A DNA stretch of 64,000 bases, taken from assembly GCA_963920705.1 (NCBI GenBank), contig OY987234.1, forward strand, positions 8,404,600 through 8,468,599, read 5' to 3'. Origin of the DNA: Odiellus spinosus (taxonomy: Eukaryota; Arthropoda; Arachnida; Opiliones; Phalangiidae). How positions within the stretch are numbered: the stretch's first letter is position 1; every line of letters starts with the position of its first letter. A program made the translations under genes and the position numbers. Under the pieces are notes generated by a model, which had not been told where the DNA came from, did no database searches, and worked only from the letters and a program-made list of their open reading frames with translations. This document shows, piece after piece, positions 31,114 to 63,275 of the stretch.

Positions 31114-33358
31114 CTAGTTATCAGTGTTTGGTGACCAAATCGTTATATCACAACCAGTTTTCAATGAAGAGATCAAATAGTTGTCGTAGCTTTCAAACTA
31201 GAAGGTAATATATTTATTAATTTGGTTCAAAACATCATACTTAAAGGGAGAACTCAACCTTTATATTAAATGGGTCTAATCCATTAGAGCCATTTCGGCT
31301 ATTTAGTAGTAGTTTGGGACCCCCTCCTGGTTTTAAAAGTTCTTAGTCTTTCCAGAATTTCCCAAGCTACTAAATTGCCATTTCTACAAACCTCAAATAA
31401 ACCTTGGAAAGTAGGCTTAACAGGGATCCAAGTTTAGGATTAAGTTCATTGGCCAGAGACTCATCAAACTCTTAAGCCTACTTTCGGAATAAAAACTGCG
31501 ATCTCCCTTTAAGTTTATTTGCAAATTAACGAGATTAATTACACCAGGTATTTCCATTTTGGATTCGTGCTGAATTCTTGCAATTTCTTTGGGTTTCAAA
31601 GTTGGTTGTAAAATGCAAATTGTGCCATCTTTTGATGATGTTTTTAAACAACCTTTTGAGTTTGAGATTTCTGTTATAAGATTCTGATGAATTTTAGGGT
31701 AAGTCTACGAATATTTAAGATTACTATTAGTTTTTAAATGAATTTTGTAGGGAATTTTATAATTAAATTTACCAAAATATGTTTAAAAGTGGCTGTATTA
31801 ATTAAATGCGCATTGCCTCCTTTATCCCCAATCCACAACTGATTATTTTGGTATGATAAACTGGATGGATAATTGTCAAACTAAAAACAATCCCAGTTTT
31901 TATTTTCTAAATTTGAATTAAAGTAAAACCTCGTTAAGGGAAAGAATCCATGGTAAAGTCAAGATCAAATTTTATTATAACCAAAACCGTCTGCTAAATT
32001 TGAACTACAGTTAACTTAAACCTTGTTAAAGTGAAAAACCTTTTCCATTTCCTTTTATAAGATATAGTCAAAGTCACTGGTTAATAGGAAAAAGCTACTT
32101 TTCTATAATTTTGGGCCTATAAAATTTTCTCTGTAAATTTAATTATAACCAAAAGTCATCTGCTAAAACTAGCCATGTATAATAATATAAAAAAATATAA
32201 AGCAATGTTACATATAATGCTTTGTTTTTCAGTAAAACCAATTTAATTTTGGCAGGAAATTCAAAACTTTTTGTTATAACGAGGTTTTACTGTAAGGGGA
32301 AATCTAAAATTGCAATTCAAAATGAAAATAATACCTTTTGAAAATGTAATACTTTCTCAGCTCGCCAATCAACTACGCTTAAAGAGCCATCTTCAGATAT
32401 TGAACACAATTGGTTCTCGTTAATAACGGCTAAACCAAGTATGGATTTTTTATGGAAGTTGTACTTTTTCTTTTTGGTTTCAGCCGGTTCTCTTAAATCA
32501 AAACGTAAAATCGAATGGTGATAACAACCTACGAATAATGCCCATTCATCTCGAGCCAAACTTAAAATTGGTGAGTTGCACCTAAATTTTGTACATTTTT
32601 TAAGTTAAGAAGATAATTTAAGAATTTTTAATATAATCTACATGCATTACTTTATGGTATTCAAATTTGTAAAGGTTTCAGAATCCCATGTTTTGATCGA
32701 CATATCCCATGAACCTGTTAAAAACTTGTTTTTTGACCCTAAAATACACCAAATCCAGCCCTAGATAACGAGTTAAGTAACTATTATCTTTTAACATCAA
32801 GGGATTTTAAGCTGCGTATTAACTTGAGAGTTGAACTTGAGACCAACCTCGTGAGCATCTTGTTGGTGATGAACTAAAACTTCAGATTCATTATCTAGTT
32901 TATCCATATTCCAAATTGAAAAGCTTCTATCTCGGGAAGCCGCTGCTAAAAGCGTAGTATCTTCTAATATTTTAAAAGAATCTATAGTTGACAGATGATT
33001 CTCTCTTAATGTTCGACAGTTCATAAAATTCAGACGATTGGACCAGTATTTATAGGATTCTTCTCGTTCAACGCAGGCTTCTTTCCAATCAACTTCTACA
33101 TCTAATGGAGGGAATTTTAAGCATTTAAACTAGAAAGATAGCCTGAGCTTTACCTTCGAGGGTGAGGTACTTTTCGGACCATTTTGATAACATCCTTGAT
33201 TTCCAAACTGCGCTATCGTTTATAAGGTCCGAAAACCTTTGGCATACTTTACTCAAAACTTCTACAACGTAACGAGCATCCAAAAAATTGTAAATATGTA
33301 ATATAATTTCCGTGGGCATTTTATCCAATGTTAAAAGTGGTGCCTTTTTCATAGTCAT
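31114..33358 (-). CDS. F-box and WD40 repeat protein (FBXW9-like)
   Basis: Probable substrate receptor of an SCF ubiquitin ligase. Exons on the minus strand, 5' to 3': 33358-33154, 33101-32848, 32760-32651, 32581-32335, 31880-31773, 31704-31543, 31197-31114; they sum to 389 residues in frame. Residues 14-55 form an F-box (MPTEIILHIYNFLDARYVV, then WKSRMLSKW). A linker (DWKEACVEREE) leads to WD repeats: LLAAASRDRSFSIWN, FLTGSWDMSIKTWD, LCSISEDGSLSVVDW, LKTSSKDGTICIL and a final LISSLKTGCDITIW. The order F-box, linker, WD40 fits FBXW9; the paralogue assignment is from memory. The start at 33358 is the first in-frame ATG; upstream in-frame codons have only TTG. Intron 1 is about 52 bp, intron 4 carries a pogo-like MITE and intron 6 a MITE of the TTAAAGGGAGA type. 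Confidence 0.8.
31240..31513. mobile_element. MITE with CTTAAAGGGAGA ends in F-box gene intron 6
   Basis: Terminal CTTAAAGGGAGA and its complement TCTCCCTTTAAG bound about 274 bp. Its insertion lies between the last two coding exons of the F-box gene. The frame reading past the exon 6 donor into it is not real. Confidence 0.75.
31922..32292. mobile_element. Pogo/Tc1-like MITE in F-box gene intron 4
   Basis: AGTAAAACCTCGTTA at the left and TAACGAGGTTTTACTG at the right form terminal inverted repeats. The same ends bound the 92-bp element at 43242. Similarity to pogo/Tigger ends is by motif only. Confidence 0.7.
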
Positions 33359-34116
33359 TGTGGAAGGAAAACCAAAATCCAAACGCAATCCGAAATAATA
33401 AACAATTTATTATTATAATATTAAGTTTTAGGGTTTAATTTAAAATTCGCTAAAACCATATAAAACTAAACGGAAAATATTCAAATTTCGAACTTCAAAA
33501 TTCAAAATACAGCTGTCATGACCCGTATTTGGAATTTTAATGAATCATGTCAAACCACGTATAGGCATAGAAGCCCTAACGGATAAAGTTCAAGTGAAAT
33601 TTTCATACGGAATAATACTTGAGCTACAAGGTTTACCTGAAAACATTACAGGTTTAATTTCAGGTTCCCGCCTTTACAAGTATAAATTATTCTGAGTGAG
33701 ATGGATTTTGTAGACAATCCTTTCCCTATTTCTGATTGGTCAAGACGATGGAAGATTCCACTGTAGACGCAGGGGTTACCCGCTATTTTTTACAGCGATT
33801 TCGTCGAGAAAAGTTCAAATCTGCGAACCGAAGTGACCCTCCATTTTGTACCGATTTTCTGCTTCATCTAACGTTATTTTCTAATGGAAAATTTTGGTAA
33901 ATAAGAGCCAATTTTATATCGTTTCTCCAACATAATTGAAAAGGTAACGAATCTTTGGTCTCATGTAATTAAAACGTGGGGAAAGTAACCGGCATTTAGG
34001 TCTAGCCTTGCCGCCCTGGAGCCGCCACGACGAGTGTTCAAACTTCAAAGGCTTAATACATTTTTGCTGGATCGCGTTGTGATTTATCCCGCAGGTTGGC
34101 GAAGTACCACCGGAAA
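33359..34116. promoter_or_regulatory. Divergent promoter of F-box gene and transportin-1
   Basis: Head-to-head start codons are 758 bp apart. The right half is richer in CpG. No TATA box at a convincing distance from either start; a bidirectional promoter is inferred from the arrangement. Confidence 0.5.
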
Positions 34117-37100
34117 ATGAAAGAAAATATGGCGCTATTATCATGGCAGCCTCAAGACGAAGGATTACGGCAAATTTTACTTCTTTTAAAAGAATCACAA
34201 TCTCCTGATACAGCAACTCAAAGATCCGTACAACAAGTATCCTTTTCACTGCTTTCATTTAAATATATTTTTAGGTTAAAAATCTCTTAAAACCAGTTTT
34301 ATATAAGCCTTGGTCAGACAATGCAATTGTATTTAAGCCACTAAGCCAGAATTGGTTTTCCATTCTAAACAAGTAGTTGCACCTGCTAATAAGAAGAATA
34401 TCAGTTTATTTTGGTTTTAATTCTCACGAATCTGTCCTGTATTTTGTATGATCTAATCTGCCCCATTTTTTTCTTGCCAATTGCCACAACTTTTCTCCAT
34501 TGTAAAAAGCTATAATTTATTAATTTCTTTCGTTCCGTAAACTTTAATGCAGCAAATTTTTTTAAACAAATTTGTTGTTGTTTATGGAAAGTAGATCAAA
34601 ATGAGAACTACCCATTTCCGTTTAGTTAAATCTATCTACTCTGAAAGAATTCGCGTAACACTTAAATATGTCAAAAATTCCTTAATATTTTATACCAGAA
34701 ATTGGAAGAGTTAAATAAATATCCAGATTTTAGCAACTACCTCATATTTGTTCTTACAAAGCTAACGACGGAAGGTAAAAATAACCATCCATCCTTAAAA
34801 AAAATTTCTTACCTACTACAAAATGCACCAATGTGTTCTTTTCTAGATGAACCAACTAGGTCTCTCAGTGGTCTCATATTAAAAAACAACGTGAAGGCTC
34901 ACCTTCGTAAATTTCCAGGGGAAGTGACAGAATTTATCAAATCAGAATGTTTAAACAGCGTCGGCGATCCTTCTCCTTTAATCAGAGCCACTGTTGGAAT
35001 TTTAATCACGACGATAGCGACCCAAGGCGATCTCACAAATTGGCCAGAACTTTTACCTAGGCTTTCTCAATTATTAGACTCCGAAGATTATAATGTCTGC
35101 GAAGTATGAGATTAAACTTCAAATATTTGTAATTTCAGTGTCTCTTTTAACAAAATCTTTTAATAACAGGGATCTTTCGGAGCTCTTCAAAAGATATGTG
35201 AAGATTCTGCGGAAGCGTTGGACAGCGACGCCTTGAGTCGACCGTTAAACTTCCTAATTCCAAAATTTCTACAATTCTTTAAACACACTAGCCCAAAAAT
35301 TAGGTCTCACGCTATCGCCTGCGTTAACCAATTTATCATGAGTCGAACTCAAGCTTTGATGTTGCACATTGATTCTTTCCTAGAGGTATTTTTCACTAAT
35401 TCTTTATCATTTTTCTTTTCACGTCCTTTCTAACATTAGACAGTCAATGTCCTTATCGTTACTACGTGAAAAGTAGAAAGAAATTCGAGAAAATACCCAT
35501 TTCTGTCATTGCATCTTGCTTTAGACCGAAAGAATTCTCGAAACAATTTTAATTTGAGCTCTTTCTTCGTTTCTTACGTTATATAATATTTTTATTTTCA
35601 TAGAATTTATTTCATTTGGCTTCTGACGAGGATCCGGAAGTGAGAAAAAATGTTTGTCGAGCTCTAGTGATGCTTCTAGAAGTTAGAATGGACAGGCTCG
35701 TTCCACATATGAACAGTATTATTGAGGTAAAAATTTGACTATTTAATAGAGAGTTTGAAAGTTTTCAGAGCTTTAGTAAGAGAGTTTCTTTCCCTTTATA
35801 GTATATGCTTATGCGCACTCAAGATTCGGACGAAGGAGTGGCATTAGAAGCCTGCGAATTTTGGTTAGCCTTGGCAGATCAAGACGTTTGCAAAGAAGCT
35901 CTCTTCCCGTACCTTCCTCAACTGATTCCGATTCTAGTCAGGGGCATGAAATACTCCGCCATTGATATCATTCTACTGAAAGGAGACGTTGAAGAGGATG
36001 AAATGATCCCCGATCGAGAGGAAGATATCAAACCCAGGTTTCACAAGTCCAAAACCCACAGTCAGAAACACATGGATGATAACGCTGAAGTAAGAATACT
36101 AATAGCATTTTAACAAGGTTTCAAATTAATTTTTTATATTTTAGAATGATAGTGATGATGAAGATGGACTAGATGATGATAATACGTTATCAGATTGGAA
36201 TTTAAGTATGGTTTTTGCTTTAGAACTGGTTTTATCGCCTTGGAGCAATGACTCATCTTTTTTTTTTTGTGTAGGAAAATGTTCGGCAGCTGCTTTAGAC
36301 GTATTAGCTAATGTTTTCCATAATGAACTATTACCAGTTTTATTACCAATCTTAAAAGAAACACTCTTTCATTCGGATTGGGAAATAAAAGAATCTGGAA
36401 TATTAGCATTAGGCGCTATTGCTGAAGGTAAACACCTATATTAAGTTATTAACACTTGGTTTGATTTTAAGCCTTGGATAGGTACTTTTTTTTTTCCAAG
36501 ACTTAAATTTGTTAATTTCAACTTGAGACATTTTTGTTTATTCTCAGGTTGCATGGGTGGAATGGTTCCACATTTACCCGAGTTAACTCCTTATTTAATT
36601 CAATGTTTATCTGACAAGAAGGCGCTGGTGCGTTCCATCACTTGTTGGACGTTGAGTCGTTACTCTCATTGGGTAGTAGGTCAACCTCACGAACAATATT
36701 TGATGCCCTTGATGACGGAACTCTTGAAAAGGGTTTTAGACGCCAATAAAAGGGTGCAAGAAGCGGCTTGCAGCGCGTTTGCCACTTTAGAAGAGGAAGC
36801 CTGCACCGAACTAGTTCCCTATTTGGGTTTCATTTTAGAAACGTTAGTCTTCGCCTTCAGCAAATACCAGGTTAGTTCCTTCCGAGTCTTCCTTTCCATC
36901 TTTAAAATCACTTAGATGAATTTGTAGTAGTCTTATTTTCTATTGTTATTTGTTTTTTTACATTTCAGCACAAAAATCTTCTGATTCTATATGACGCCAT
37001 TGGTACTTTAGCTGATTCAGTTGGACATCATTTAAATAAAGAGGTAAGCCTAATTTATTGGGCTCCTGGGGGTTTAAGACTACAGGCCTGAAAAATCTGG

Positions 37101-40100
37101 GTTCAAGAATTTTAGTTACTTTTGGATAAAACATCAAGTTTGGTTTTAAATAGATCTATTTGGTGTCCAAAGGTGATTTTTGTCATTTTGAAAAGCAATT
37201 CAATATCCAACCACAGAACAGGGTTAATCACACTCGAGCTTAACAAGTTATCACCAGAAGAAGATATCTTCTTCTGGTTATCACTTAGGCCAGTTAATTT
37301 CTAATGTATAATTTTAAATAAACAATGATTATAATAAAATGATATTATCTTAGCTATTACCCATAGAATAATTCATAAAGCATTTTTGGGTTGATTTTAT
37401 TCTAAGCGTAATTTGGGCCCAATTCTGTTAGAAAGTAATGAACATTGGGAGCCCAGTGTTGCCATGGTTACACCATGGGCCAAGAAAGGATGAATCAAGG
37501 ACATGACTCTAGAGTCTACTAAGAGAAATGGGCTAAGTCATCACCATGCCATGATGACGCGTTTTTGGGGTCAATTTTCTACAGGCAAAGCTGTTGCGTT
37601 TTGGTAGCCAAGTGACGTCATATGACGTCACACGCTGTATGAAGGCTGTTTGTTTGGCCGACCGATAATTTACTCCATCAAACAGAGAAGAGTCATGTCC
37701 TGGATTTATCGTTTCACTCTGATGAAGCAGCATGAATCTTTAATATGCTGCAAATTCAGTTTTAATGGGGATTGGAATGAGTTGCTTAGAAATTTAAAGT
37801 AATCTTATGGATTAGGTTTTGAAGTAAGCCTAAGTGTCAAGGAATTAAGTTTTACGTCAAGTCGATGGAATATATTTCTGAAAGTCAAAAGATAGTTTTA
37901 TAAAGCTCCTTTAAGATTTTCATTGAAAACCAGGTCTTTCTACCTTATTTCTAACGTTAGACAGTCATTGTCTGTATCGTTACTTTGTAGAAAGTAGATA
38001 AATACTCGTGAAAATACCCATTTCTGCCATTGCATCTTGCATTAGACTGAAAGAATTCCCGAAACAATCTGGAAATTTGATTTAGCATTTCTTGTTCTGC
38101 TCCAATTGGAAATCTAAGAAATTTAATAGTAAATTATTATTTTAGGAATACATTAACCTTCTAATGCCACCCCTAATTCGAAAATGGAATGATTTAACGG
38201 ACGATGATAAAGACCTGTTTCCACTTCTCGAGGTAAGTACCTGTTTTTGCGAGTTTAATTTCTTGTTAATTGGAACAGGCCCACTTTTATTAGAACAATT
38301 CAAAATTATTCATTTTAAGACAATTCACAATATTCAAAATTCTGAGATTTAAAAGCAATGTCTTAGGGGGAAAGTGTAGAATGTTGAAAAGTTACAGCTT
38401 TTTATCTCAAAATGGCAGCTTTCTTTATCCCCTTATTTCACTAGATTTTATAATTTAATGAAGGTTTAGGCCAAGATCGTATTAGTGTACCAGGTTTGTA
38501 TGCGTCAGGAAAGCTCAATTGTTGGGGGATTTAAATGCAGTCCCCCTCCATCTGGTTGGGGACATTTAAATATACTAATATAGTGCCCTGAAGCTTGATT
38601 TGAGGGATTTAAATGCAACAGTCCCCCAAGGCAGGCTTGGAAATAAGGCACTAGTCATCGCATTTGATTACTAAAATTAATAGAAATCAAGGGATAACTA
38701 GTAAAACATTTACCAAAATTTTAATATTCAAACCCAAAATGGGGAAAAACGAGATTATACGCGAATAGGAAAAGCTTAAATTCAGTCCTCGCCAATACGA
38801 CTTACGAGTCAATATGGTGACATTGGGGGCCCATAGGTCACCAGGCTGTTCTAAGGAGGAGCGTACCTGCCCAGGGCAGCAATGCAGCACGCAAAGCTCC
38901 CGCACAGCGCAGTAGTGGGTTAGCACCTGTGAGCTCGCGTATGCTGAGATGGGTAAAGCATAATATTAATACGGTCTTTCCTTCTTGTTTCATACCCTTA
39001 TTTTTACCCCCAGTAGTCAGCGACTACCAAAATAAATAAATTATTATTAAATCAGTCTGACTACCAAATAAAATATCCTTATTTCCAAGCCTGCCCCAAG
39101 GATGGGAAATTTAAATGCAGTTTCCCCCTGGTTTGGTGAGATTTAAATGTAGTTTCAGCCCTGGTTTGGGTAGATTTAAATGTAGTTTCCCCCCTGGTTT
39201 GGGTAGATTTAAATGTAGTTTCCCCCCTGGTTTGGGAAGATTTAAATTTAGTTCTCCCCCTGGTTTGGGAAGATTTAAATTTAGTTCTCCCCCTGGTTTG
39301 GGAAGATTTAAATTTAGTTCTCCCCCTGGTTTGGGGAGATTTAAATTTAGTTTTCCCCCTGGTTTGGGAGATTTAAATTTAGTTTTCCCCCTGGTTTGGG
39401 GAGATTTAAATTTAGTTTTCCCCCTGGTTTTGGGGAGATTTAAATTTAGTTTTCCCCCTGGTTTTGGGGAGATTTAAATTTAGTTTTCCCCCTGGTTTGG
39501 GGAGATTTAAATTTAGTTTTCCCCCTGGTTTGGGGAGATTTAAATTTAGTTTTCCCCCTGGTTTGGGGAGATTTAAATGCAGTTTTCCCCCTTGTTTGGG
39601 GAGATTTAAATTTAGTTTTCCCCCTGGTTTGGGGAGATTTAAATGCAGTTTTCCCCCTTGTTTGGGGAGATTTAAATGTAGTTCCCTCTCGTTGGTTAGA
39701 TTTAAATGTGGTTTCTGTACAGATTGGGGAGATATAAATTCAATCGCTTGGGGTTGTTGAATCTGAAATCCAGGGTGGGAGAAGCTCTAATCCAGAAAAA
39801 GAAAGGAGCTTAAGTGTACACAAAGATTTTGGGCAAAACTATAACGTAGACCAAGACATTTGATTGGTTTTTGGTTGTAAGTTAGGGAACACTTGTCCTT
39901 GGCCATTTTGGGGTAATGTATTGTTTAATTGTGGAATTTTCAACATTCTACCGCAATTTTCCCATATTGTGGCACCTTAAATAACAAGCTTTTTATCAAT
40001 ATTTAACCCTTTTGGCATTTATTTTAACTCCGTACCTTTCGTAATTAGAAAGTAAATCAATTATATATCCCAGCTTTAATTTTTCTAAAAGTGTATGTTA

Positions 40101-43100
40101 CTTAGTTCATTTAGTTTTGTCTTTAAAAAAGTTAATTTTAATATTTTTATCGAAAGAAAAATACCTTATTTTTTGATTTTATTTTTTACAAACGATATCT
40201 TTTTGGTTTTTTCTTTTTTTTTCTTTCCGTTCCTTTCTTTTGTTTTTTTTTTTCTACCGTGTACGTTTCCAGTGTCTGTCTAGTGTGGCCACTGCACTGC
40301 AGTCAGGCTTTCTGCCCTACTGCGAGCCTGTCTTTCGACGTTGTGTTTCCTTAGTTGAGCAGACTTTAAATCAGAATATGGTATGTCCATGTTCCGTTTA
40401 TTTTTTCCATTTTCATTATTATTTTCTATCGAAAGTCCAGAAACTGAGTTTTTTCAATTATATCTTTGGGGTACAAATGTAATCAGAATCGTCACGTACC
40501 AAACTATAGTTCTCTTCTAAGGGGTGACCATTTGGCATTTTTTTCTCTACACTTTGCGTACTTTCCTAGGTTTATAATTGTTGTAAAAGAACATTCAAAT
40601 TAGTATACATTCTAACCAACAAAGGGAGGAACTTTATCTGGGGAAGATGAAGTTTCTAAAGATTAAATTTGCGAGATAATCAGTAAACTTGCATGTCTAT
40701 CTAAATTTTCCCTAAAAAAGTGAATTGTTTTATCAATAATTCCTCATTACCAATTTTATCTAAAAAGCGAGCCCTTACGGGTCTGTAATGGTCACCCCTG
40801 TTTTTGTTTATTTAGAGCGTAATTTCTAACGTGTTGAAAACTCAAGCTGATTCTGACTATAACTAAGATATGTTTTCATCAGATTTTTAATGGTTGTTTT
40901 TAGATCTAGCTTAGAATAATGATAGATTGATGATTTTTCTGGGGAAAATATTTAGAAAACATTTTATCCGTATAATTTTAATTCTATCTTAATTTTCCCT
41001 AGTTCCATATACACTTAGTTTTGTTACACGCATCCAAAATTTCTATGCGATATTTATTATCTGTGTGCTTCTTTTAGTTAAAAAATTATAAATTTTTCTA
41101 CACACTTAGCGGTTAAAAATATCAAAATATTTTGTAAATTATTTACATTGCATGATGCACACTGTAAACCGCTTTTGTCCATTGACCACATTTGATACCA
41201 ATTCGAGCGTTTTTAATATTAATTGGTTTTAAAATTTTAATAACCACTTTTAGACGTATTTATATTTAATTTATCCCCTATTTCCATAAAAATAGATGTG
41301 GTCAACATTAGTCTTAGATAAATATAAAATTGGAAGTTTTAGGCTCTCATTTAACTCTTTACTTATATTTCGCGTTTCTTACATGGGTAGGCGACTCGTC
41401 GCTATCTTGAAGCATCTTAGTCTAAATAGGGGATGCAAAAACAGTTATGAAAACTAAGTCTGGGAATTAAAATGAACTTGGTCTAACTCTTAAAAAACTC
41501 TAAAGGGAGAGTGAAGCCTATTACCAAATTATTTTCTATTTATTCCTTATTGTTTAAATAGGCCTAATCCCACTAACAGGGATTCCATCTAATTCCTAGA
41601 GTTCCCTGAAGTTCCTATTTAGATACTAGGTCCATAAATCACCCTAAAATCAGTATTTGGTTGTTAAATCATCCTTTTTTCCATATTTTGGGGCTAAATG
41701 TCTGTCTAGGTGGCCTGAGTAACTTTAAGGAAATTCTAGTCTAGAGTTAATGCACTCCTCAGGAGTACAAAGTGAAGGAGAGGAAAAAATTGCAGGACTG
41801 GTCTCCACCTGATCTGTCCTAAAAAGTTTCACTAGCTAGAAGTCCATTTTCCCCTTCACTAGTAAAACAATTTAGAAACAAAATTAAGCTAGAAATCAAT
41901 TTTCTCTCAAAGTAGGCTTAACAAAAGTTTACCACTGTGGTATAGTGAAAAATTGAAAGTATTTTATTCAAGATGATAGACAAAATGACTAGTTTTGAAG
42001 CTTTATCATCAGGTATGATTCTAAATATTGAGGGGAAGTTACAAACCAAACTCAGAGCCTTCCCTCAACCTTTAGAACTACACCTGTTTGTTCATTTTGA
42101 ATAAAATATTTAATTTTTCACGTAAATTAGTTTTAAAAATAAGCTAGAGATCAATTTTCTCTCAAAGTAGGCTTAACAAAAGTTAACCACTGTGGTATAG
42201 TGAAAAATTGATGAAAGTACTTTTTATTATTAACATGGATTTGTAGTGATTCCAAAAAATATATTTCTAACTTAAATTGTTTTTGGAAAAATTTGCAACA
42301 AGTAGATTGTGTTTATTTTAATAAGGTAAAAATCATCCTTCGTTAGGCTTCATTCTCACTTAAGAGAATGTTTAAAGAATGGCTTAAATCATTGTAAGTT
42401 AAACTTAACAAAGGATAATCTAAAAAGAACTTTAAATTTGCTAGTTAACCTAGTAGAAATGACTTGGTTGGTGTGATTATAAATCCCTCTAAATTAACTC
42501 TGAGTAAAGTCACGGAACTAACGAGTTGATATAATGGAATGATTAAGAAGTTTTGTCAGTGCTAATATGTTTACCTCAAACTAAATAAAACCAGGCCAGC
42601 GCGGCTCACCCGGATCAGTTTGATGTCCCTGATAAAGATTTCATGATTGTGGCGCTGGATTTGCTGAGCGGTTTGGCCGAGGGTCTGAACGGTCATTTGG
42701 ACTCTTTAGTCATGTCCAGCAATATCATGCAACTTCTGTATCAATGTATGCAAGATCCTATGCCCGAAGTTCGTCAGAGTTCCTTCGCTCTCTTGGGGGA
42801 TTTGACCAAAGCCTGCTTTCATCACGTTAATCCATGTATATGTATGTCTAACTTTTAAAAATTGTCCTTGTTCGCTCAATCTTCCGTAAAAACATTTTTA
42901 TTTCAGCCGATTTTTTGCCCATTCTTGGTCAAAACTTGAATCCCGAATTTATTTCCGTTTGTAACAACGCCACGTGGGCCATTGGAGAGATAGCAGTTAA
43001 ATTAGGTGTGGTATTTCGCTTCTTCACTGAAATTTATGTCAAATGTACTTAATTTGTTTGAATTTCAATCGCAGGACGAGATATGAAACCGTATATCCCA

Positions 43101-46100
43101 ATCGTACTCAATCAATTAATATCAATTATAAATCGGCCAAACACTCCTAAAACTTTACTCGAAAACACGGGTAAGTTATATTTTTCAGGTAGCCTTATCT
43201 AGTGGGGTAAAAATATATATTTCATCTTGAACTTAAAACTACAGTAAAACCTCGTTATAGCAAAATTTTGCCCAGGCCCAAAAAGACTGGAGTTGGTCTG
43301 ACCTAATTCTTAATGAATAAAAAGGTTTTACTGTAGTAAGATTCTCGTAGTTTATTTTAAATGGGCTTCTCCAGGTTTGACAAATATTTTTATTTTTAGA
43401 GTAGATAAGTGAAGATGTTAGTACGTTATAGGCTCTTAGTTTAGTCTATTTTCTTCTCAAACGCTTAGCCCAGACAAGTTTGATGTAGTATTTGTCCCAA
43501 GCGCATGATTATAATTTGATTAAACTTTTCTTTTTTATTATATATATGAATCCCAAGCCGCTTTTTTAAAACTATTTGTCCGAATCGAGACTAATCCCAC
43601 ACATTCATTAACATTAATAATCTTGATATGAATTTGACAGTGAGAGAAGAATTTGAATTATAATTTTATAACTTGTCTCGGTTGGGTGGAAAATAATAGT
43701 GAAGTACATTTTTGGATAACAATGGATTTGGATATCACTTTGATTTAATGCGAACTTTCATAATGGTGAAGAACCATAAATTTTAGTTACCGTAAGGAAT
43801 GATCCAGAGGGGCTACTCAATATTTTTTATTACGCTTAAAAAGCATTGTGAAACTTGTAACAAAAACAAAAATCTAAGGATTAACATTCTTTAAAAGAAG
43901 GGTGAAGAGGAAAATCAAGTGATTTTATAACTTTAACGATTATAATATTGAAAAAAGAATTGTTTGCTTATTAAAACATTCTTGAATTGTGCCAAAGAAA
44001 TTCAGATTTTGGCATTCTATTCAATTAAAAAGAGATCATCCAACTAATCAAAAGACTCGCCTGTACCTTTGGCTCCATAAAATATCTGCAATTGTGCACG
44101 TGAAAATAATCACGTGAGTTAGTGTGCCATGTACAGGGTTCGTACACAACCTGGAAAAGTCAGGGAAGTATAAAATGGGTCCAAAAGGTCAGGGAACAGT
44201 CAGGGAAATATATTTTTTGGGTGAAAGTCAGGGAAAACGGTGATGATTTGTAGGAGTTGCAACGTGTGTAATATGTTTAGCTGAAATGTTTTATACGGAA
44301 TTTTATTTCTCTCAACACTTTTCAATTTAACGCGCAATTTCTTTTTCTACTAGGCTTAGTCATCCCCATCATTTGAATTGATTCCCACCTGCATATAATA
44401 TAGAGTGCATGTTGGTGGTCAGGGAATTTATTGAAAAATGGTCAAGGAAAACCTGGAAAAGTCGGAAATTCAATTCTTGCGGGATTTTATTAAGATAAGA
44501 TAGTCTTTTGATTAGATGGAAGTTCTACAACTTAGCAAAGAATCGTAATTTTACTGTAGTTAAAATAAGTTTCAATTCTGGTCAAATTTGCCCAATATTT
44601 TTATTATTTTTCTATTTTGAAGCTCTTATTAAGCAAGATATCTCTCCAATCATCCAACGTTACTCAAAAATTATTTTTTTCACTGGACCCATAGCTCGTG
44701 ACTGTTAAAATATTTTTTGGGGGTATAATTTTTTTACGTTTAATTTTTTTTCATCTGAGTTGTCTTTTTTGCTTCTCTCTCTTCTTCTCTTTTCCAATCT
44801 TTTTCCTTTTCCCATTGAAAAAAAAACCAAAAAAAAAAACTAAAAACTGTCACGCAAAAACCACGTACCCAACTTGTGAACAAAACCGTACAATTTTTTT
44901 AAAAAAAATTGGGTCTACGTCTACCTTGTACCTCCTTTTTCTCACATTCTCTCTCTTTCGCTCGGTTTATCCCGCCGTTTCGATAACCGACCAATATCCT
45001 TTAGCCATAACAATCGGTCGTCTTGGTTATGTTTGTCCTGAAGAAGTGGCCCCTATGTTACAGCAATTTATTCGCCCTTGGTGTGTAAATATTTTTTATT
45101 TTTTTTTTTTTTTAATCTCAATTATCTTTTTCATTAACTTCTGGATTAGAAAGTTTTAATTTTAACATTTTTTTCGTAAAGGGCATCTAGGGGGTTGAGA
45201 GTCGAGGTTTTTATTGTACAGTTCGTATATTTTAAGAATAACATGGGAAGCAAATTGTCAGAAGTGAACCCATTGATGACCAAGAATGAATTGGACTTCG
45301 GTGCTAAGACCTTAGGTTTTTTTATATACCTCTTATCTCGATCCTCCCTGTAGACAATCTTATGCAGCAGGGTCGCCACAATTCGAGAAATTTTAAAATT
45401 GAGCTTAAAATAAGTCACGAAATAAATTGTAGTTCAAATCCCATCTCCTTCGCCCTTGTAGTGTTTATTGGCTGAATATTATTTAGTTTAGTGGTCAATT
45501 GTTAATTTATTATATTGTATGGGTTCAAATCCCATCCTCGTTGCCATTGTAATTTTTTGTAGAGTTGTTTCAAATCTCGTGACAAAATCCCTTTTTAAAT
45601 AAGGTGCTTTGCTTTTTCTAGCATTCCTAAGTTCGCATGCGTTTTCAAATTTGAATTTATAGAATAAAAATTCAAATTTGTAAGGATATTTCAGAGCGTA
45701 CCAAATGATATCAATGTAGAAAAGGAAATATATTGTTATTTAATCAGAGAAAATGCTCAAAGAAAGGTCAGGGAATTAAAAAATTGCGATTGTTGTGGCA
45801 ACCCAGCACAGTATTTGAAGAGATAATGAATAACATATTATGTTAGACAAAAAGTCATATTATTCATGTAAACATTTTTAAAGTTCATCTAAAATTTCTC
45901 GTTTGTTGTTATCAATATGAAAATGATGTAAGGCTTAGTCGGTTCAAAAGTTTTTCATTGGGAAAGTTTAAAAGTAGGAATATACAGTCATTGGGATTGT
46001 TAAAAAAGTAGCCCTACAGTCTTAGGAATGTTTGGATAGTAGGCCTAAAGTTCTTTTCACATTCTTCTAACGCTAAACAATCATTGTTTTTCGTTGATTC

Positions 46101-46746
46101 GTGGAAAGTATAAAAAAATTTAAGAAAATACCCATTTCTGCCATAGAGTATTTTGCTTTAGGTCGAAAGAATTCTTTAAACAATTTTTATTTTACGGGGT
46201 TTCATTAACATTACAATTTTCGGGGGGATTCGCTTCTGACGATTTGCTTTTATAGTTTAAACTAAAGATAATTCTGGTCAAATTCCTTTTGCCGTCAAAT
46301 GTTAAATAAGAACTTTAATGAAAAAGGCATATTATCTTAACTTTTAACAAAAGCAATGAGTTTTTAAGTATTTGACCCCTCCTTTAAAAGGTGTTCTTCA
46401 TTGCGTAACATCAGAGACAATGAAGAAAAAGATTCGGCATTCAGGGGCATCTGCAATATGATTACTGTTAATCCCGGCGGAATTGTACAAGATTTTATCT
46501 TTTTCTGCGACGCCGTAGCTTCTTGGGTCAGTCCCAAACCAGACTTGAAGAATATGTTTCAAGAGGTACCGAAATATTGTTTAAAATTTTGGGCCATTTA
46601 ACCATTTTGAAATCTAACTCGATATCCACTTTCGTTAGATACTTAATGGCTTCATGACTCAAGTTGGAGAAGAAAATTGGCGTCAATTCTCTGAACAATT
46701 TCCCCAACCGTTAAAAGAACGACTCCTAGCATATTACGGCGTTTAA
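34117..46746 (+). CDS. Tnpo1: Transportin-1 (karyopherin beta-2), 18 exons
   Basis: Nuclear import receptor of the importin-beta superfamily, binding PY-NLS cargo and RanGTP. Exons: 34117-34236, 34699-34774, 34847-35103, 35170-35385, 35604-35726, 35802-36089, 36145-36205, 36275-36427, 36548-36870, 36969-37043, 38146-38232, 40273-40380, 42595-42841, 42907-43005, 43075-43170, 45005-45080, 46391-46565, 46639-46746. They give 895 residues; the human protein has about 898. HEAT repeats run throughout, with near-invariant blocks such as [56 protein letters not shown] and [17 protein letters not shown]. The acidic H8 loop ([13 protein letters not shown]) that lets RanGTP release cargo is present at exons 6-7. 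Intron 2 (34775-34846) is 72 bp, in frame and stop-free, so retention would add 24 residues. Introns 1, 4, 10 and 16 hold snoRNA-like RNAs on the same strand. The start ATG precedes [12 protein letters not shown], which aligns with the family N-terminus. Confidence 0.97.
34526..34663 (+). ncRNA. Box H/ACA snoRNA-like RNA, transportin-1 intron 1
   Basis: Most diverged member of the four-copy intronic family. A first hairpin (CTTTC with GAAAG at its base, then CGTAAAC with GTTTATG) is followed by an H-box match AGATCA and a second hairpin. The shared segments TACCCATTTC and GAAAGAATTC lie on the two sides of the second hairpin, and ACA ends 3 nt before the proposed 3' end. The stem and box order is seen; the snoRNA identity is inferred. 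Confidence 0.55.
35425..35548 (+). ncRNA. Box H/ACA snoRNA-like RNA, transportin-1 intron 4
   Basis: About 124 nt. Hairpin 1 closes with CTTTCTA and TAGAAAG; its upper stem pairs GACA with TGTC. The hinge AAAGAA fits the H-box consensus ANANNA. Hairpin 2 closes with the perfect pair TTCGAGAA and TTCTCGAA, followed at once by ACA and three more bases. Position inside an intron on the sense strand fits the usual biogenesis of metazoan snoRNAs by exonuclease trimming of the debranched intron. The rRNA or snRNA target was not worked out. Confidence 0.7.
37936..38069 (+). ncRNA. Box H/ACA snoRNA-like RNA, transportin-1 intron 10
   Basis: About 134 nt and the clearest copy. Hairpin 1 closes with CTTTCTAC and GTAGAAAG (8 bp) and contains AACG/CGTT and AGACA/TGTCT upper stems. 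The hinge AGATAA is an exact H box. Hairpin 2 has CGTGAA opposite TTCCCG at its base with one mismatch, and the conserved internal segments TACCCATTTCTG and GAAAGAATTC. ACA sits three bases from the end. It ends about 75 bp before exon 11. Confidence 0.72.
38520..39735. repeat. 33-bp minisatellite in transportin-1 intron 11
   Basis: Main array 39100-39735 of GATTTAAATTTAGTTTTCCC plus CCTGGTTTGGGGA; outlying units near 38520-38625 are cut off by the inserted element at 38630-39094. Because 33 is a multiple of three, the array reads as an 11-residue protein repeat, which is spurious. Confidence 0.9.
38630..39094. mobile_element. Element with 20-bp terminal inverted repeats inside a minisatellite
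   Basis: GGCAGGCTTGGAAATAAGG and its complement bound about 465 bp that are more GC-rich than the neighbourhood. Units of the same 33-bp minisatellite lie on both sides, so it interrupted the array. No coding frame of note. Confidence 0.7.
40520..40799. mobile_element. Short MITE, AGGGGTGACCATT ends
   Basis: AGGGGTGACCATT at 40520 and its complement at 40787-40799 bound 280 bp in transportin-1 intron 12. AT-rich inside; no coding frame. Confidence 0.6.
41886..42218. repeat. 75-bp direct repeat in transportin-1 intron 12
   Basis: AAGCTAGAAATCAATTTTCT to GTGAAAAATTG at 41886-41961 recurs at 42141-42218 with few changes, about 256 bp apart. The unit contains TCAAAGTAGGCTTAACAAAA. Confidence 0.8.
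43242..43333. mobile_element. Short pogo-like MITE with TA target duplication
   Basis: CAGTAAAACC at the left and GGTTTTACTG at the right, flanked on both sides by TA. It lies in transportin-1 intron 15. A half copy (TAATGAGGTTTTACTG) lies near 55225 in the REDIC1-like gene. Confidence 0.75.
43875..44135. mobile_element. Fragment of the nested inverted-repeat family
   Basis: Contains TTTTGGCATTCTATTCAATT and ACTAATCAAAAGACTC, followed by CTTTGGCTCCATAAAATATC, which match the reverse complement of the right arm of the element at 15501-16027. Only one side is present. Confidence 0.6.
44145..44470. repeat. GTCAGGGAA-rich dispersed repeat
   Basis: GGTTCGTACACAACCTGG, then repeated AAAGTCAGGGAA motifs and a complement-like end near 44460. 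Fragments of the same kind appear near 2990, 11115 and 45760. I recall similar GTCAGGGAA repeats in several invertebrate genomes, but the family is not identified here. Confidence 0.5.
45435..45546 (+). repeat. tRNA-like (SINE-type) double unit
   Basis: TAGTTTAGTGGTCAAT resembles an A box and GGGTTCAAATCCC a B box 40 bp later, ending CTCGTTGCCA. The expected acceptor stem does not form, so this is a tRNA-derived repeat or pseudogene rather than a working tRNA. A second AGTTCAAATCCCATC lies 90 bp upstream. Confidence 0.45.
46053..46185 (+). ncRNA. Box H/ACA snoRNA-like RNA, transportin-1 intron 16
   Basis: About 133 nt. Hairpin 1 closes with CTTTTCAC and GTGGAAAG (one G-T pair); upper stem AAACA/TGTTT replaces AGACA/TGTCT of the intron-10 copy, a compensatory change. 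The hinge ATAAAA fits ANANNA. Hairpin 2 closes with AAGAA/TTCTT where the intron-4 copy has GAGAA/TTCTC, again covarying. TACCCATTTCTG and GAAAGAATTC are unchanged, and ACA plus three bases ends the unit. Confidence 0.68.
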
Positions 46747-56033: not shown

Positions 56034-56768
56034 CTAAAATACAACTACGGAATTAATTTCGTTAGTTACATTTAAGTGTAAATTTTGTTTAGTACCTTCG
56101 TTTTTTAATATTAAATTATCATACCATTTCTTGATAATAATCGGAAATTTATCGGCGTAATTTAAGGGATAACTAAAACTATACAGTAAATGTTGAAAAG
56201 GAACGAAACAATTGATATTTATCTTCTCGGATAAAGTATTATCAATTTTTAAGTACACTTTATGGTTTCTCAACTCCGGAACTATCTTAGGATCAGATTC
56301 GGTTTGAATTAATACGACGGGAAAGCCCAAAATGACACCCCATACGAAAGTAAGTGACCAGTTGAGCTCAGTTTCTAAATGGAAGATTTGTGGCTCCAAT
56401 GTTTGGTCCTTTTGAAATTGTACAAAATATTCTCGTAGTAAATTTAAAGTTAGTTTAGCTTGAGCTAATTGGGTAACTTCAAGTTCGCAGAAACTAAAAT
56501 ATTGTTCAGGGGATAAACTATCGATATTTTCGATAAGAGAATCAAAACATACTGTAAAAACCTCATCACGCAGAGTTAAAATGTTTAAATTCCTGCGGAT
56601 AGCGATTTTATTTTCACATAAGCCTTCTAATACTTCCACCAAAAATGTTCTCGCTTCTTCCGGGGTTATTTTACATTCGTCCCACATATATCCTGGTTTC
56701 AAATTTAACGCGATCGAAGTTAAATCGACCCGAACTTTCTTTCTCCACGTGTTTTTTCGTTTTCCCAT
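56034..56768 (-). CDS. C1orf74-family (UPF0739) protein, single exon
   Basis: Uninterrupted 244-residue frame starting with a basic N-terminus (MGKRKNTWRKKVRVD). The segment LKPGYMWDECKITPEEARTF and the later ELNWSLTFVWGVILGFPVV match my recollection of the UPF0739/C1orf74 family, whose human member has about 269 residues and no known function. The protein looks globular, with alternating helices and strands and no signal peptide or clear membrane segment; the hydrophobic stretch near residues 138-152 is too short and polar-flanked to be a confident helix. It is convergent with the REDIC1-like gene, leaving only 79 bp between stop codons, so the 3' ends probably overlap. The coding call is strong from length and composition; the family name is less sure. 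Confidence 0.7.
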   Translation of the reverse strand: MGKRKNTWRKKVRVDLTSIALNLKPGYMWDECKITPEEARTFLVEVLEGLCENKIAIRRNLNILTLRDEVFTVCFDSLIENIDSLSPEQYFSFCELEVTQLAQAKLTLNLLREYFVQFQKDQTLEPQIFHLETELNWSLTFVWGVILGFPVVLIQTESDPKIVPELRNHKVYLKIDNTLSEKININCFVPFQHLLYSFSYPLNYADKFPIIIKKWYDNLILKNEGTKQNLHLNVTNEINSVVVF

Positions 56769-57607
56769 TTGAAATAATCGGTTTATTTAAATCAAAACCA
56801 ATATTTTCCTAAACCAAATTGCTAAATAGATTATCTAGCCAATAATCTATAGCAGACCACTGTAGAGTGCAGACGATGCAAAGTCATAGCAAATTTGACC
56901 TTTTAGAGTGACTCATTGTCTCATTCCATTCTAGGCTGTACATATAGATTTTTTTTTATATATCGTAGACTTCTTGACCAGTAAACCCCCCCTACCGGCA
57001 ATATTTTTTTAAAAGGATATTCCTTTCATCAGGAGTTCATTACAATCTACTCATGGTAGCAATTTTGTAAGTAGTTTAATGCCTTGACATGGTGCATTAT
57101 GTACAGCCCTGATCCATTAAAGTATTGGTATGGTAATGCCCTCCGGCGGAAAAGTTTATTAATTTTGGCGGTTTATTTAAATGAAATTGTGTGTTATTTT
57201 TACTTGTACAAGTAGTGGGTAGGAGGTGCAGGTGCTCGTTAATCCTATTTCAAATATATATCACTGTAACACTAGAAGATGCTTCTCATGACATATTTAA
57301 TTCGCGGCGTCGCAGGAACAATATAGGCCTTAAAACTCAGCAAGTGCCTGTTAATAGAAAACTAAATGGATTGTGTTTCAAAGTAATTTAATGAGTAAAA
57401 TTATTTTTGCCAAGGTATGTAGGTTAGTTTTTGTATCGTAATTTACTGACCCAGTTCCAGTTACGAAGGTTTACACGGAGAATCGACGTTCGTATGTAGG
57501 GTTTTAAAAATAATCATTATTCGCGTTAAACGCAAAAGCTGCAACTGGCAGGAGCGTATTATTTGTTCCCAGAAAACAACCCTGTACAGTGTACACACTC
57601 CTGACGT
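56769..57607. other. Spacer before the foldback element
   Basis: Promoter side of the C1orf74-family gene followed by unremarkable AT-rich DNA. Short frames near 57191 have no recognisable content. Confidence 0.4.
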
Positions 57608-57989
57608 TTAGCCTATATCGTCGTCAATTTGGCAGAATCGGTCGTTCATTCGGCCAGAGGAATCGGCCCAAAAAATTTCCCAGATTCTGCCAGACTCGCG
57701 ACTCGAGATATGGCCTAAAACCATTTTCAGACCTACCTATCAAGATTTAGTTTTCGACGAATTTTACGGTAAAAACGTTAAAATTAGGGGTAACTGAAAT
57801 CATTTATGATAATATTCATTATTTTTAATATTTTAACTACAAAAATATTTGTAGAAAAAAGCATTTAAACTAAAATTAGCAAAATTTTACGTAATCCCCT
57901 CACAATAGATGGCGCCTTGATGACGAATAAAGCGTCAAAATTCAAACTGGCTTTTTCACATATACTGTATATTTCTCAAGGGGGTGCAT

Positions 57990-59612
57990 AAAAAGCCATA
58001 TATCTCGGCTCAAAAACGGTCAAAGTTTTTTAAATAATTCTCAATTATTCTAATTAAACTCCTCTTTCGAATGAGATAGGTCTCGTTAAAAACATGTCTT
58101 TCCTTCATAAGGAAATAAAATTATGAAAATTAAGAAAAAACTAGTTTTTTTTGACATATTATATACTATATAAATATCAGGGGGGGTACATAAAAAGCCA
58201 TATAACTCGGCTCAAAAACGGTCAAAGTTTTTTAAATAATTCTCAATTATTCTAATTAAACTCCTCTTTCGAATGAGATAGGTCTCGTTAAAAACATGTC
58301 TTTCCTTCATAAGGAAATAAAATTATGAAAATTAGGAAAAAACTAGTTTTCTCACATATTATACACCATATAAATATCAGGGGGGGTACATAAAAAGCCA
58401 TATAACTCGGCTCAAAAACGGTCAAAGTTTTTTAAATAATTCTCAATTATTCTAATTAAACTCCTCTTTCGAATGAGATAGGTCTCGTTAAAAACATGTC
58501 TTTCCTTCATAAGGAAATAAAATTATGAAAATTAAGAAAAAACTAGTTTTTTTGACATATTATATACTATATAAATATCAGGGGGGGTACATAAAAAGCC
58601 ATATAACTCGGCTCAAAAACGGTCAAAGTTTTTTAAATAATTCTCAATTATTCTAATTAAACTCCTCTTTCGAATGAGATAGGTCTCGTTAAAAACATGT
58701 CTTTCCTTCATAAGGAAATAAAATTATGAAAATTAGGAAAAAACTAGTTTTCTCACATATTATACACCATATAAATATCAGGGGGGGTACATAAAAAGCC
58801 ATATAACTCGGCTCAAAAAAGGTCAAAGTTTTTTAAATAATTCTCAATTATTCTAATTAAACTCCTCTTTCGAATGAGATAGGTCTCGTTAAAAACATGT
58901 CTTTCCTTCATAAGGAAATAAAATTATGAAAATTAAGAAAAAACTAGTTTTTTTTGACATATTATATACTATATAAATATCAGGGGGGGTACATAAAAAG
59001 CCATATAACTCGGCTCAAAAACGGTCAAAGTTTTTTAAATAATTCTCAATTATTCTAATTAAACTCCTCTTTCGAATGAGATAGGTCTCGTTAAAAACAT
59101 GTCTTTCCTTCATAAGGAAATAAAATTATGAAAATTAAGAAAAAACTAGTTTTTTTTGACATATTATATACTATATAAATATCAGGGGGGGTACATAAAA
59201 AGCCATATAACTCGGCTCAAAAACGGTCAAAGTTTTTTAAATAATTCTCAATTATTCTAATTAAACTCCTCTTTCGAATGAGATAGGTCTAGTTAAAATC
59301 AACTCATTCCTTCATTAGGAAATAAAATTATGAAACTTAGGAAAAAACTGGTTTTTTCACAAATTTTATACTGTATAAATATCAGGGGATTACATAAAAA
59401 GCCATATATCTCGGCTCAAAAACGGTCAAAGTTTTTTAAATTATTCTCAATTATTCTAATTAAACTCCTCTTTCGAATGAGATAGGTCTAGTTAAATTCA
59501 ACTCATTCCTTCATTAGGAAATAAAATTATCAAACTTAGGAAAAAACTAGTTTTTTCACAAATTTTATACTATATAAATATCAGGGGGGGCATAAAAAGC
59601 CATATATCTCGG
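57990..59612. repeat. Left-arm array of about 200-bp monomers
   Basis: Eight copies of a unit containing GCCATATAACTCGGCTC and ACTCCTCTTTCGAATGAG. Monomers come in types distinguished near the unit end: TTTTTGACATATTATA (A), TTCTCACATATTATACACC (B) and TTTCACAAATTTTATAC (C). The order from left to right is A-B-A-B-A-A-C-C, so part of the array was amplified as A-B dimers. Confidence 0.9.
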
Positions 59613-60513
59613 CGGGTTGAGAAAGAGTTGAGACGGGTTGAGAAAGAGTTGAGACGGGTTGAGAAAGAGTTGAGACGGGTTGAGAAAGAGTTGAGACGGG
59701 TTGAGAAAGAGTTGAGACGGGTTGAGAAAGAGTTGAGACGGGTTGAGAAAGAGTTGAGACGGGTTGAGACGGGTTGAGAAAGAGTTGAGACGGGTTGAGA
59801 AAGAGTTGAGACGGGTTGAGAAAGAGTTGAGACGGGTTGAGAAAGAGTTGAGACGGGTTGAGAAAGAGTTGAGACGGGTTGAGAAAGAGTTGAGACGGGT
59901 TGAGAAAGAGTTGAGACGGGTTGAGAAAGAGTTGAGACGGGTTGAGAAAGAGTTGAGACGGGTTGAGAAAGAGTTGAGACGGGTTGAGAAAGAGTTGAGA
60001 CGGGTTGAGAAAGAGTTGAGACGGGTTGAGAAAGAGTTGAGACGGGTTGAGAAAGAGTTGAGACGGGTTGAGAAGGAGTTGAGACGGGTTGAGAAGGAGT
60101 TGAGACGGGTTGAGAAGGAGTTGAGACGGGTTGAGAAGGAGTTGAGACGGGTTGAGAAAGAGTTGAGACGGGTTGAGAAAGAGTTGAGACGGGTTGAGAA
60201 AGAGTTGAGACGGGTTGAGAAAGAGTTGAGACGGGTTGAGAAAGAGTTGAGACGGGTTGAGAAAGAGTTGAGACGGGTTGAGAAAGAGTTGAGACGGGTT
60301 GAGAAAGAGTTGAGACGGGTTGAGAAAGAGTTGAGACGGGTTGAGAAAGAGTTGAGACGGGTTGAGAAAGAGTTGAGACGGGTTGAGAAAGAGTTGAGAC
60401 GGGTTGAGACGGGTTGAGACGGGTTGAGAAAGAGTTGAGACGGGTGGAGAAAGAGTTGAGACGGGTTGAGAAAGAGTTGAGACGGGTTGAGAAAGAGTTG
60501 AGACGGGTTGAGA
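59613..60513. repeat. 21-bp minisatellite, left copy
   Basis: About 43 copies of GAGACGGGTTGAGAAAGAGTT with rare variants (four consecutive AAGGAG units at 60070-60150). Starts abruptly inside a monomer after ATATCTCGGC. The period is a multiple of three and lacks stops, so several frames stay open; none is a credible gene. Confidence 0.95.
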
Positions 60514-60967
60514 AAGACCGGTCCAAGATTGGAGATTGGATGCGAATCCGCTGACAATGAGGTACGATTCGACCCGTTTCCGTCACCTTGGCCTTTCCTC
60601 TGGAACAAAGCTGAATGCCCTACATTTAACTACTCCACTCAGATACACTAATCCCATTGAACGCATTTCGTAAACGATGCTTCATCAAAAGTTTGCTTTT
60701 CAAAAAAAGAGCGCTAATATAACAAAAAAATCTAAAACTTTTTTGGAGAAAAAATCCCTTATTTCTCAGCTGAAAAACGGTAAATTTTTTGGAAATAATA
60801 ATTACTTATAGTATTTAAACTAATCTTTCCGATGAGATAAGTCTAGTTAAATTCAACTCATTGCTTCAAAATCAAATATAATTATGAAAATAAATCAATA
60901 CCACTTATTTCACATAATGTGGGAGTAGTTTTTGAAATAATTATTACTTGTAGTAACTAAACTCCTC
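60514..60967. other. Central spacer of the foldback element
   Basis: About 230 bp of unique sequence, followed from about 60760 by a diverged monomer in left-arm orientation (AGCTGAAAAACGGTAAA, then CCGATGAGATAAGTCTAG). No coding frame seen. Confidence 0.7.
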
Positions 60968-61283
60968 TTTCTCAACCCGTCTCAACTCTTTCTCAACCCG
61001 TCTCAACTCTTTCTCAACCCGTCTCAACTCTTTCTCAACCCGTCTCAACTCTTTCTCAACCCGTCTCAACTCTTTCTCAACCCGTCTCAACTCTTTCTCA
61101 ACCCGTCTCAACTCTTTCTCAACCCGTCTCAACTCTTTCTCAACCCGTCTCAACTCTTTCTCAACCCGTCTCAACTCTTTCTCAACCCGTCTCAACTCTT
61201 TCTCAACCCGTCTCAACTCTTTCTCAACCCGTCTCAACTCTTTCTCAACCCGTCTCAACTCTTTCTCAACCCGTCTCAACCCG
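60968..61283. repeat. 21-bp minisatellite, right copy, inverted
   Basis: About 15 copies of the complement of the left minisatellite unit (TCTCAACCCGTCTCAACTCTT is one unit and a base short of shared phase). Its outer junction is GGGTTGAG/GCCGAGATAT in complement, the same breakpoint as on the left. Confidence 0.95.
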
Positions 61284-62900: not shown

Positions 62901-63275
62901 CCCTTGATAAATATACAGTATATGTGAAAAAGCTAGTTTGAATTTTGAAGCTTTATTTGCGTCATCAATGCGCCATCTATTGTGAAGTGATTACGTAAAA
63001 TTTTGTTAATTTTAGTTTAAATGCTTTTTTTACAAAGCATTTATAGTTAAAATATTAAAAATAATGAATATTATGATAAATGATTTCAGTTACCCCTAAT
63101 TTTAACGTTTTTACCGTAAAATTCGTCGAAAACTAAACCTTGATAGGTAGGTCTTAAAATGGTTTTAGGCCATATCTCGAGTCGCGAGTCTGGCAGAATC
63201 TGGGAAATTTTTTGGGCCGATTGTTCTGGCCGAATGAACGACCGATTCTGCCAAATTGACGACGATTTAGCCTAT

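Follow-up and report, generated by a model that had tools for sequence, protein, structure and literature searches.

The 64-kb window analyzed here (positions 8,404,600 to 8,468,599 of contig OY987234.1 from Odiellus spinosus; coordinates below count from its first nucleotide) carries the gene for transportin-1 (karyopherin beta-2), and four of its introns each hold one copy of a short element. These four paralogous copies are very probably intronic box H/ACA small nucleolar RNA (snoRNA) genes that would guide formation of the same pseudouridine (Ψ) as is attributed to SNORA7 in human and snR81 in yeast. The coding exons of the host lie on the forward strand at 34144-46743, as placed by tblastn, Pfam and PDB matches: one exon open reading frame (ORF) matches a PDB transportin-1 with an E value of 2e-62, of seven ORFs examined, three have a Pfam IBN_N or HEAT match, and the exons were ordered by tblastn with a provisional human TNPO1 query. 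An earlier reading of the DNA letters (hereafter the sequence-only reading) had named the same host and had placed the units on its sense strand, each in an intron of its own; both points are confirmed, with all four units on the forward strand, in four different introns that begin with GT and end with AG.

Unit 1 (34526-34663, intron 34237-34698) has an H box, AGATCA, at 34593-34598, the two sides of its 3' pocket at 34609-34618 and 34643-34652, and an ACA box at 34658-34660. The corresponding parts of unit 2 (35415-35548, intron 35386-35603) are AAAGAA at 35477-35482, a pocket at 35494-35503 and 35528-35537, and ACA at 35543-35545; those of unit 3 (37936-38069, intron 37044-38145) are AGATAA at 37996-38001, a pocket at 38015-38024 and 38049-38058, and ACA at 38064-38066; and those of unit 4 (46053-46185, intron 45081-46390) are ATAAAA at 46110-46115, a pocket at 46129-46138 and 46165-46174, and ACA at 46180-46182. 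The unit coordinates first proposed hold for units 1, 3 and 4, and for unit 2 the start moves from 35425 to 35415, since the 10 nt originally omitted make up the 5' side of the stem that closes it (CTTTTCACGT/ACGTGAAAAG). An ANANNA hinge can be found in every unit, this being a loose motif in A-rich DNA, and unit 2 reads AGAAAG at the conserved H-box position, with the proper ANANNA beginning 2 nt downstream. Every unit retains a complete ACA box immediately after the closing stem, and homology fades soon past ACA+3.

The paralogy of the units is plain from their sequences. Scanning both strands of the window, TACCCATTTC occurs exactly four times, always on the forward strand and within a unit, and GAAAGAATTC exactly five times, also always forward, with four occurrences in the units and the fifth at 22930. 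Two 10-nt blocks are identical at 20 of 20 positions in all six unit pairs, with identity elsewhere running from 54/108 to 88/111 (50-79%), and in an H/ACA RNA these two blocks are both sides of the 3' pocket, i.e., the guide. With four copies that have drifted everywhere but in the pocket, nature offers a clean test of what selection preserves in an H/ACA RNA. An ungapped alignment of units 2 and 3 shows 84% identity over 134 nt and ends no more than 1 nt from the unit borders, and in units 2-4 the common 3' end extends a few bases past ACA+3 as one ungapped repeat; among the 250-nt flanks on either side, the best blastn match has an E value of 0.056, and homology stops near the unit borders. 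A covariance model built from units 2-4 alone (E values rough, from a short calibration, with the 64 kb as search space) ranks unit 1 next, at 31.1 bits and E 7e-5. Six further matches follow, with E values from 0.012 to 7.6; two are antisense to units 2 and 4. The best of the six (13737-13848, E 0.012) lacks both exact blocks but holds a one-mismatch copy of the second. A model of the four 3' halves that uses sequence without structure finds just those four in the window, as expected by construction.

With respect to structure, the complete 5' halves fold well in all units (z -4.14, -2.50, -2.67 and -4.05 for units 1-4). For the 3' halves the z values are -0.16, -2.97, +0.26 and -1.43, in the same order, with a clear hairpin in unit 2, a partial one in unit 4 and weak ones in the other two units; in the minimum-energy fold of the unit 4 3' half, the inner stem is formed and the closing stem is not. 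Folded whole, the units give z values of -3.60, -2.03, -0.68 and -2.20, and unit 1, whose 5' hairpin is unlike those of units 2-4, does not take the H/ACA form. The earlier statement that every unit folds is true of the four 5' hairpins and too strong for units 1 and 3, whose 3' hairpins stand at shuffle level. Covariation was scored on a hand-written H/ACA structure with units 2-4 alone: 101 of 108 cells are paired, and 6 of 36 pairs show a two-sided change (two in the 5' closing stem, one in the 5' inner, one in the 3' closing and two in the 3' inner stem). Shuffling the 3' letters gives a mean of 3.0 two-sided pairs and reaches 6 in 9 of 500 trials, and sliding the partners by 1-3 columns lowers pairing to 35-49% and leaves 0-1 two-sided changes. 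RNAalifold on units 2-4 finds 6 of 35 pairs two-sided, and the two-hairpin form with an internal pocket holds for their consensus. The claim that compensatory change shows the RNA structure to have been kept gains from these counts, and its three stem examples are all correct on re-check, but covariation from three to four sequences is supportive, not decisive. The structural case is carried by the 5' hairpins and by units 2-4 taken together, with weak 3' hairpins in units 1 and 3.

A weak 3' hairpin could also mean that some units, most likely 1 and 3, are decaying snoRNA pseudogenes or near-pseudogenes, a reading with which the breaks in the 3' closing stem (T-C and C-A in unit 3, T-T in unit 4) and the divergence of unit 1 over half its length agree as well. 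We regard it as somewhat unlikely, since a free pseudogene would hardly keep a pocket at 20/20 in all four copies against 50-79% elsewhere, and the ACA is intact throughout and the 5' hairpin of every unit continues to fold well.

The proposed target lies in the 28S ribosomal RNA (rRNA). As target sequence we used L012, an 18S-5.8S-28S contig of another eukaryote than the units' animal, in which Rfam recognizes part of the 18S, the 5.8S and the beginning of the 28S, in total 3,278 nt of rRNA. L012:1-4241 is filed under a Rhodobacteraceae metagenome-assembled genome and is eukaryotic rDNA, a contamination of that bin. Only one 9-mer common to the four units, TACCCATTT, is exactly complementary to some stretch of this rRNA (among host-intron 9-mers, 90 of 7,149 are), and its complement adjoins the uridine at L012:3374, within AUUCUCAAACUU[U]A-AAUGGGUAAG. 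The arms of the 3' pocket, UACCCAUU on the left and AAG on the right, are common to all units, and at the conserved site CAAACUU[U]AAAUGGGUA, where brackets mark the candidate target, each unit pairs with this real eukaryotic 28S through 8 bp on the left and 3 bp on the right, counting Watson-Crick pairs only. The sequence-only reading had suggested comparing the pockets with the organism's own rRNA as a check; against the rRNA of this other eukaryote, all four units have a match. Under a low wobble score, and with provisional rRNA and small nuclear RNA (snRNA) sequences added to the scan, the same uridine ranks top for all four 3' pockets, at 26 versus at most 20.5 elsewhere; under a higher wobble score, applied to the whole of L012 including spacers, the site is top for three pockets and second for that of unit 4. 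Eight base pairs with at least three on each side may be required for snR81 (PMC8096250), and the 8+3 pairing of all four units, to another eukaryote's 28S, reaches that number.

Pseudouridines are known around this position in both human and yeast: human 28S Ψ1766, 1768, 1769 and 1779 are listed separately (PMC6182160), and yeast 25S has Ψ1042, 1052 and 1056 (PMC8307265). The L012 site was aligned to the human and yeast 28S provisionally, and when L012:3374 is set as 1779/1052, the UU at -11/-10 corresponds to human 1768/1769, -10 to yeast 1042, and the U at +4 to yeast 1056. This -11/-10/+4 rule holds for 4 of the 370 uridines in the 28S part of L012, which makes it consistent and not unique. 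By spacing, the L012:3374 uridine would fit human Ψ1779 and yeast Ψ1052. The cited papers conflict over the numbering of the SNORA7 target: SNORA7A/B is the predicted guide of human 28S 1569 and 1779 in PMC12931454, is assigned only 1582 (1569) in PMC9941101, and has its target given as 28S 1771 in PMC7862062. SNORA47 appears as a guide of Ψ1779 in PMC9941101 ('Psi 1779 (Psi1766)'), an entry that we read as a different numbering and set aside, with 1766 and 1779 listed separately in PMC6182160.

Strand, introns, boxes, two-sided changes, unit-confined homology and the frozen pocket with its match to a conserved rRNA site all support the original proposal of same-family intronic H/ACA snoRNAs; transcription, processing, assembly into a ribonucleoprotein (RNP) and modification are inferred from general H/ACA biology. 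Splicing of the transportin-1 pre-mRNA would release the four unit-bearing introns, and the excised introns would be trimmed around an RNP of Cbf5/dyskerin, Nop10, Gar1 and Nhp2 on each unit. The 3' pocket would bind the 28S at the site written above, and Cbf5/dyskerin would isomerize the uridine marked there (human 28S Ψ1779, yeast 25S Ψ1052) to pseudouridine. The main role of the 5' hairpins is probably to provide the other half on which the RNP assembles.

Several observations weigh against this assignment. Rfam models, another check proposed at the outset, find nothing at the units, whether at gathering score over the window or at E values up to 5 over 34450-38200 and 45900-46350. RNAalifold on all four units does not find the two-hairpin structure, and shuffled sequence folds as well as the 3' half of unit 1 or unit 3. 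The right arm pairs through only 3 bp, part of a longer conserved block, and it stands 13 nt from the ACA in all four units (14 counting the target base), slightly short of the 15-16 nt given as the pseudouridine-to-box distance in eukaryotes (PMC7991803). Unit 4 has a slightly better, wobble-rich match in the 18S under the higher wobble score. Watson-Crick pairing of 8+3 is rare among controls, being reached by 11 of 2000 pockets sampled from introns and 9 of 2000 shuffles of unit 2's pocket (~0.5%), but this strict threshold was set after the match had been seen; when wobble and free trimming are allowed, controls reach the score in 83/500, in 38, 42, 22 and 22 of 300, and in 53/400, and the target match scored in this manner is not significant alone. 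Finally, the place of human Ψ1766 (-13) falls on an A in L012, where human 28S presumably has a U.

The same lack of significance in wobble-permissive scans would suit H/ACA snoRNAs whose 3' pocket guides another RNA (the rest of the 28S or 18S, or an snRNA) or nothing, as would the fact that the 28S 3' half, the 18S 5' half and the snRNAs were covered with provisional sequences only; we nevertheless hold this unlikely, because no other site comes near for any 3' pocket (at most 20.5 versus 26, provisional sequences included), and the predicted uridine fits a published human and yeast pseudouridine.

The 5' pockets of units 2-4 share no target in the scanned rRNA and the provisional rRNA and snRNA sequences. 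Unit 2's best 5'-pocket match, with a score of 26, lies in the 18S part of L012, in a stretch that we take to be variable between species. In a more elaborate version of the snoRNA reading, which we consider quite unlikely, transportin-1 would be a dosage and backup array for one 28S pseudouridine common to yeast and human, and unit 1 would be a hairpin-swapped chimera, in which the common 3' guide is linked to another 5' hairpin with a pocket fitting the equivalent of human 18S Ψ649. That pocket, whose right arm lies 14 nt before the H box, pairs with a provisional 18S sequence, GCGUA[U]AUUAAAGUU, through 8 Watson-Crick bp on the left and 3 bp on the right, 2 of them wobble; a match of this quality is seen for 8 of 2000 shuffled pockets against the real L012 rRNA, in which that 18S stretch is absent, and it tells against a chimera that the 5' pocket of unit 1 is mostly closed in the minimum-energy fold. 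Human 18S Ψ649 is listed in PMC6182160. If the chimera were real, H/ACA guide hairpins would have recombined as modules.

It is very improbable that the units are a transposable element (e.g., a short interspersed element (SINE), a miniature inverted-repeat transposable element, or a snoRNA-derived retroposon) that landed in one gene four times by chance: they are multi-copy and their flanks are not recognizably homologous, as after insertion, but all are sense and in introns of one gene, their conservation centers on the pocket, their stems changed on two sides, and beyond these four the models detect no credible copy in the window.

Other repeats lie within the host gene. A tandem array with a 33-bp unit (17.6 copies at 94%) occupies 39104-39683, between transportin-1 exons, and an 88-nt direct repeat at 91% identity (41869-41956 and 42124-42211, with ends TCAATTTT...AAAAATTGA) lies between two of them. 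Near unit 4, a repeat at 45432-45466 and 45523-45557 starts with GTTCAAATCCCATC, which resembles the tRNA B-box motif; ARAGORN finds no tRNA there, and the repeat is perhaps a tRNA-derived SINE remnant. A match to the C/D-box family snoZ101 at 36161-36259 (26.6 bits versus a cutoff of 44, E 0.094) straddles an exon-intron border by eye and is probably due to chance. Adjoining transportin-1 and pointing away from it, the minus strand carries F-box and WD40-like ORFs at 32317-33406. Farther along the window, a 250-aa ORF on the minus strand (56034-56786) matches Pfam DUF4504, and 57980-62922 holds a pair of satellite arrays, one with 8.1 copies of a 202-bp unit and one with 8.2 copies of a 199-bp unit, both adjoined by a 21-bp minisatellite. 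The arrays are inverted copies, ~93% identical over 1973 nt, and form a large palindromic satellite structure that is possibly a mobile element.

In a search for relatives outside the window, the double block had one match in viral contigs (L001), which by eye lies in coding DNA and was taken as chance, and a 21-nt pattern from a provisional SNORA7 sequence had 0 matches there. A 16-mer used to look for eukaryotic 28S had 10 matches in the viral contigs, none with any of six other large-subunit words in the stretch available around it, and two further rRNA patterns had 0 matches in them; among genome contigs there were two matches, L012 and L013, the latter having no Rfam match.

Transportin imports ribosomal proteins, and for this reason transportin-1 makes sense as a snoRNA host. 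Human TNPO2 hosts SNORD41. Judged by titles and abstract openings, none of the 20 papers listed out of 74 on snoRNAs, transportin and intron host genes evidently treats transportin-1 as a snoRNA host. Like the multi-copy H/ACA snoRNAs of Drosophila, where several near-copies of one intronic guide occur, the units are intronic near-copies of one candidate guide. Expressed fly snoRNAs lie to 95% in introns of host genes, many of them clustered, in a study whose main text contains neither 'transportin' nor 'Tnpo' (PMC13228274), in which respect the units differ.

Unlike human SNORA7A/B (ACA7, Rfam SNORA7), the units have no match at Rfam threshold, and they would likely be guides to the same site that are not filed as SNORA7. 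Human SNORA7A, in a provisional sequence that may contain errors and ends at ACA+2, presumably has the arms CACCCAUU/AAG, nearly those of the units, with an equal 13 nt from the right arm to the ACA. The target would be alike as well: the candidate site of the units would be 28S Ψ1779, the predicted target of SNORA7 (PMC12931454), and the comparison is limited to this position, SNORA7 being additionally assigned 28S Ψ1569. The hosts differ, SNORA7A/B residing in RPL32 and RPL32P3 (PMC7862062, PMC6509762). Yeast snR81 is alike in that its 3' hairpin targets 25S U1051 (PMC8096250), which is Ψ1052 in PMC8307265 and by spacing would be the same position; its 5' hairpin guides U42 of the U2 snRNA (PMC8096250), unlike the 5' pockets of units 2-4, which have no common target in the sequences scanned. 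The units would be new members of a well-known kind, the intronic H/ACA guides, and not a new kind of system, and they provide, with a guide that matches no Rfam family, a concrete candidate guide-target pair for an rRNA position that is modified in both yeast and human.

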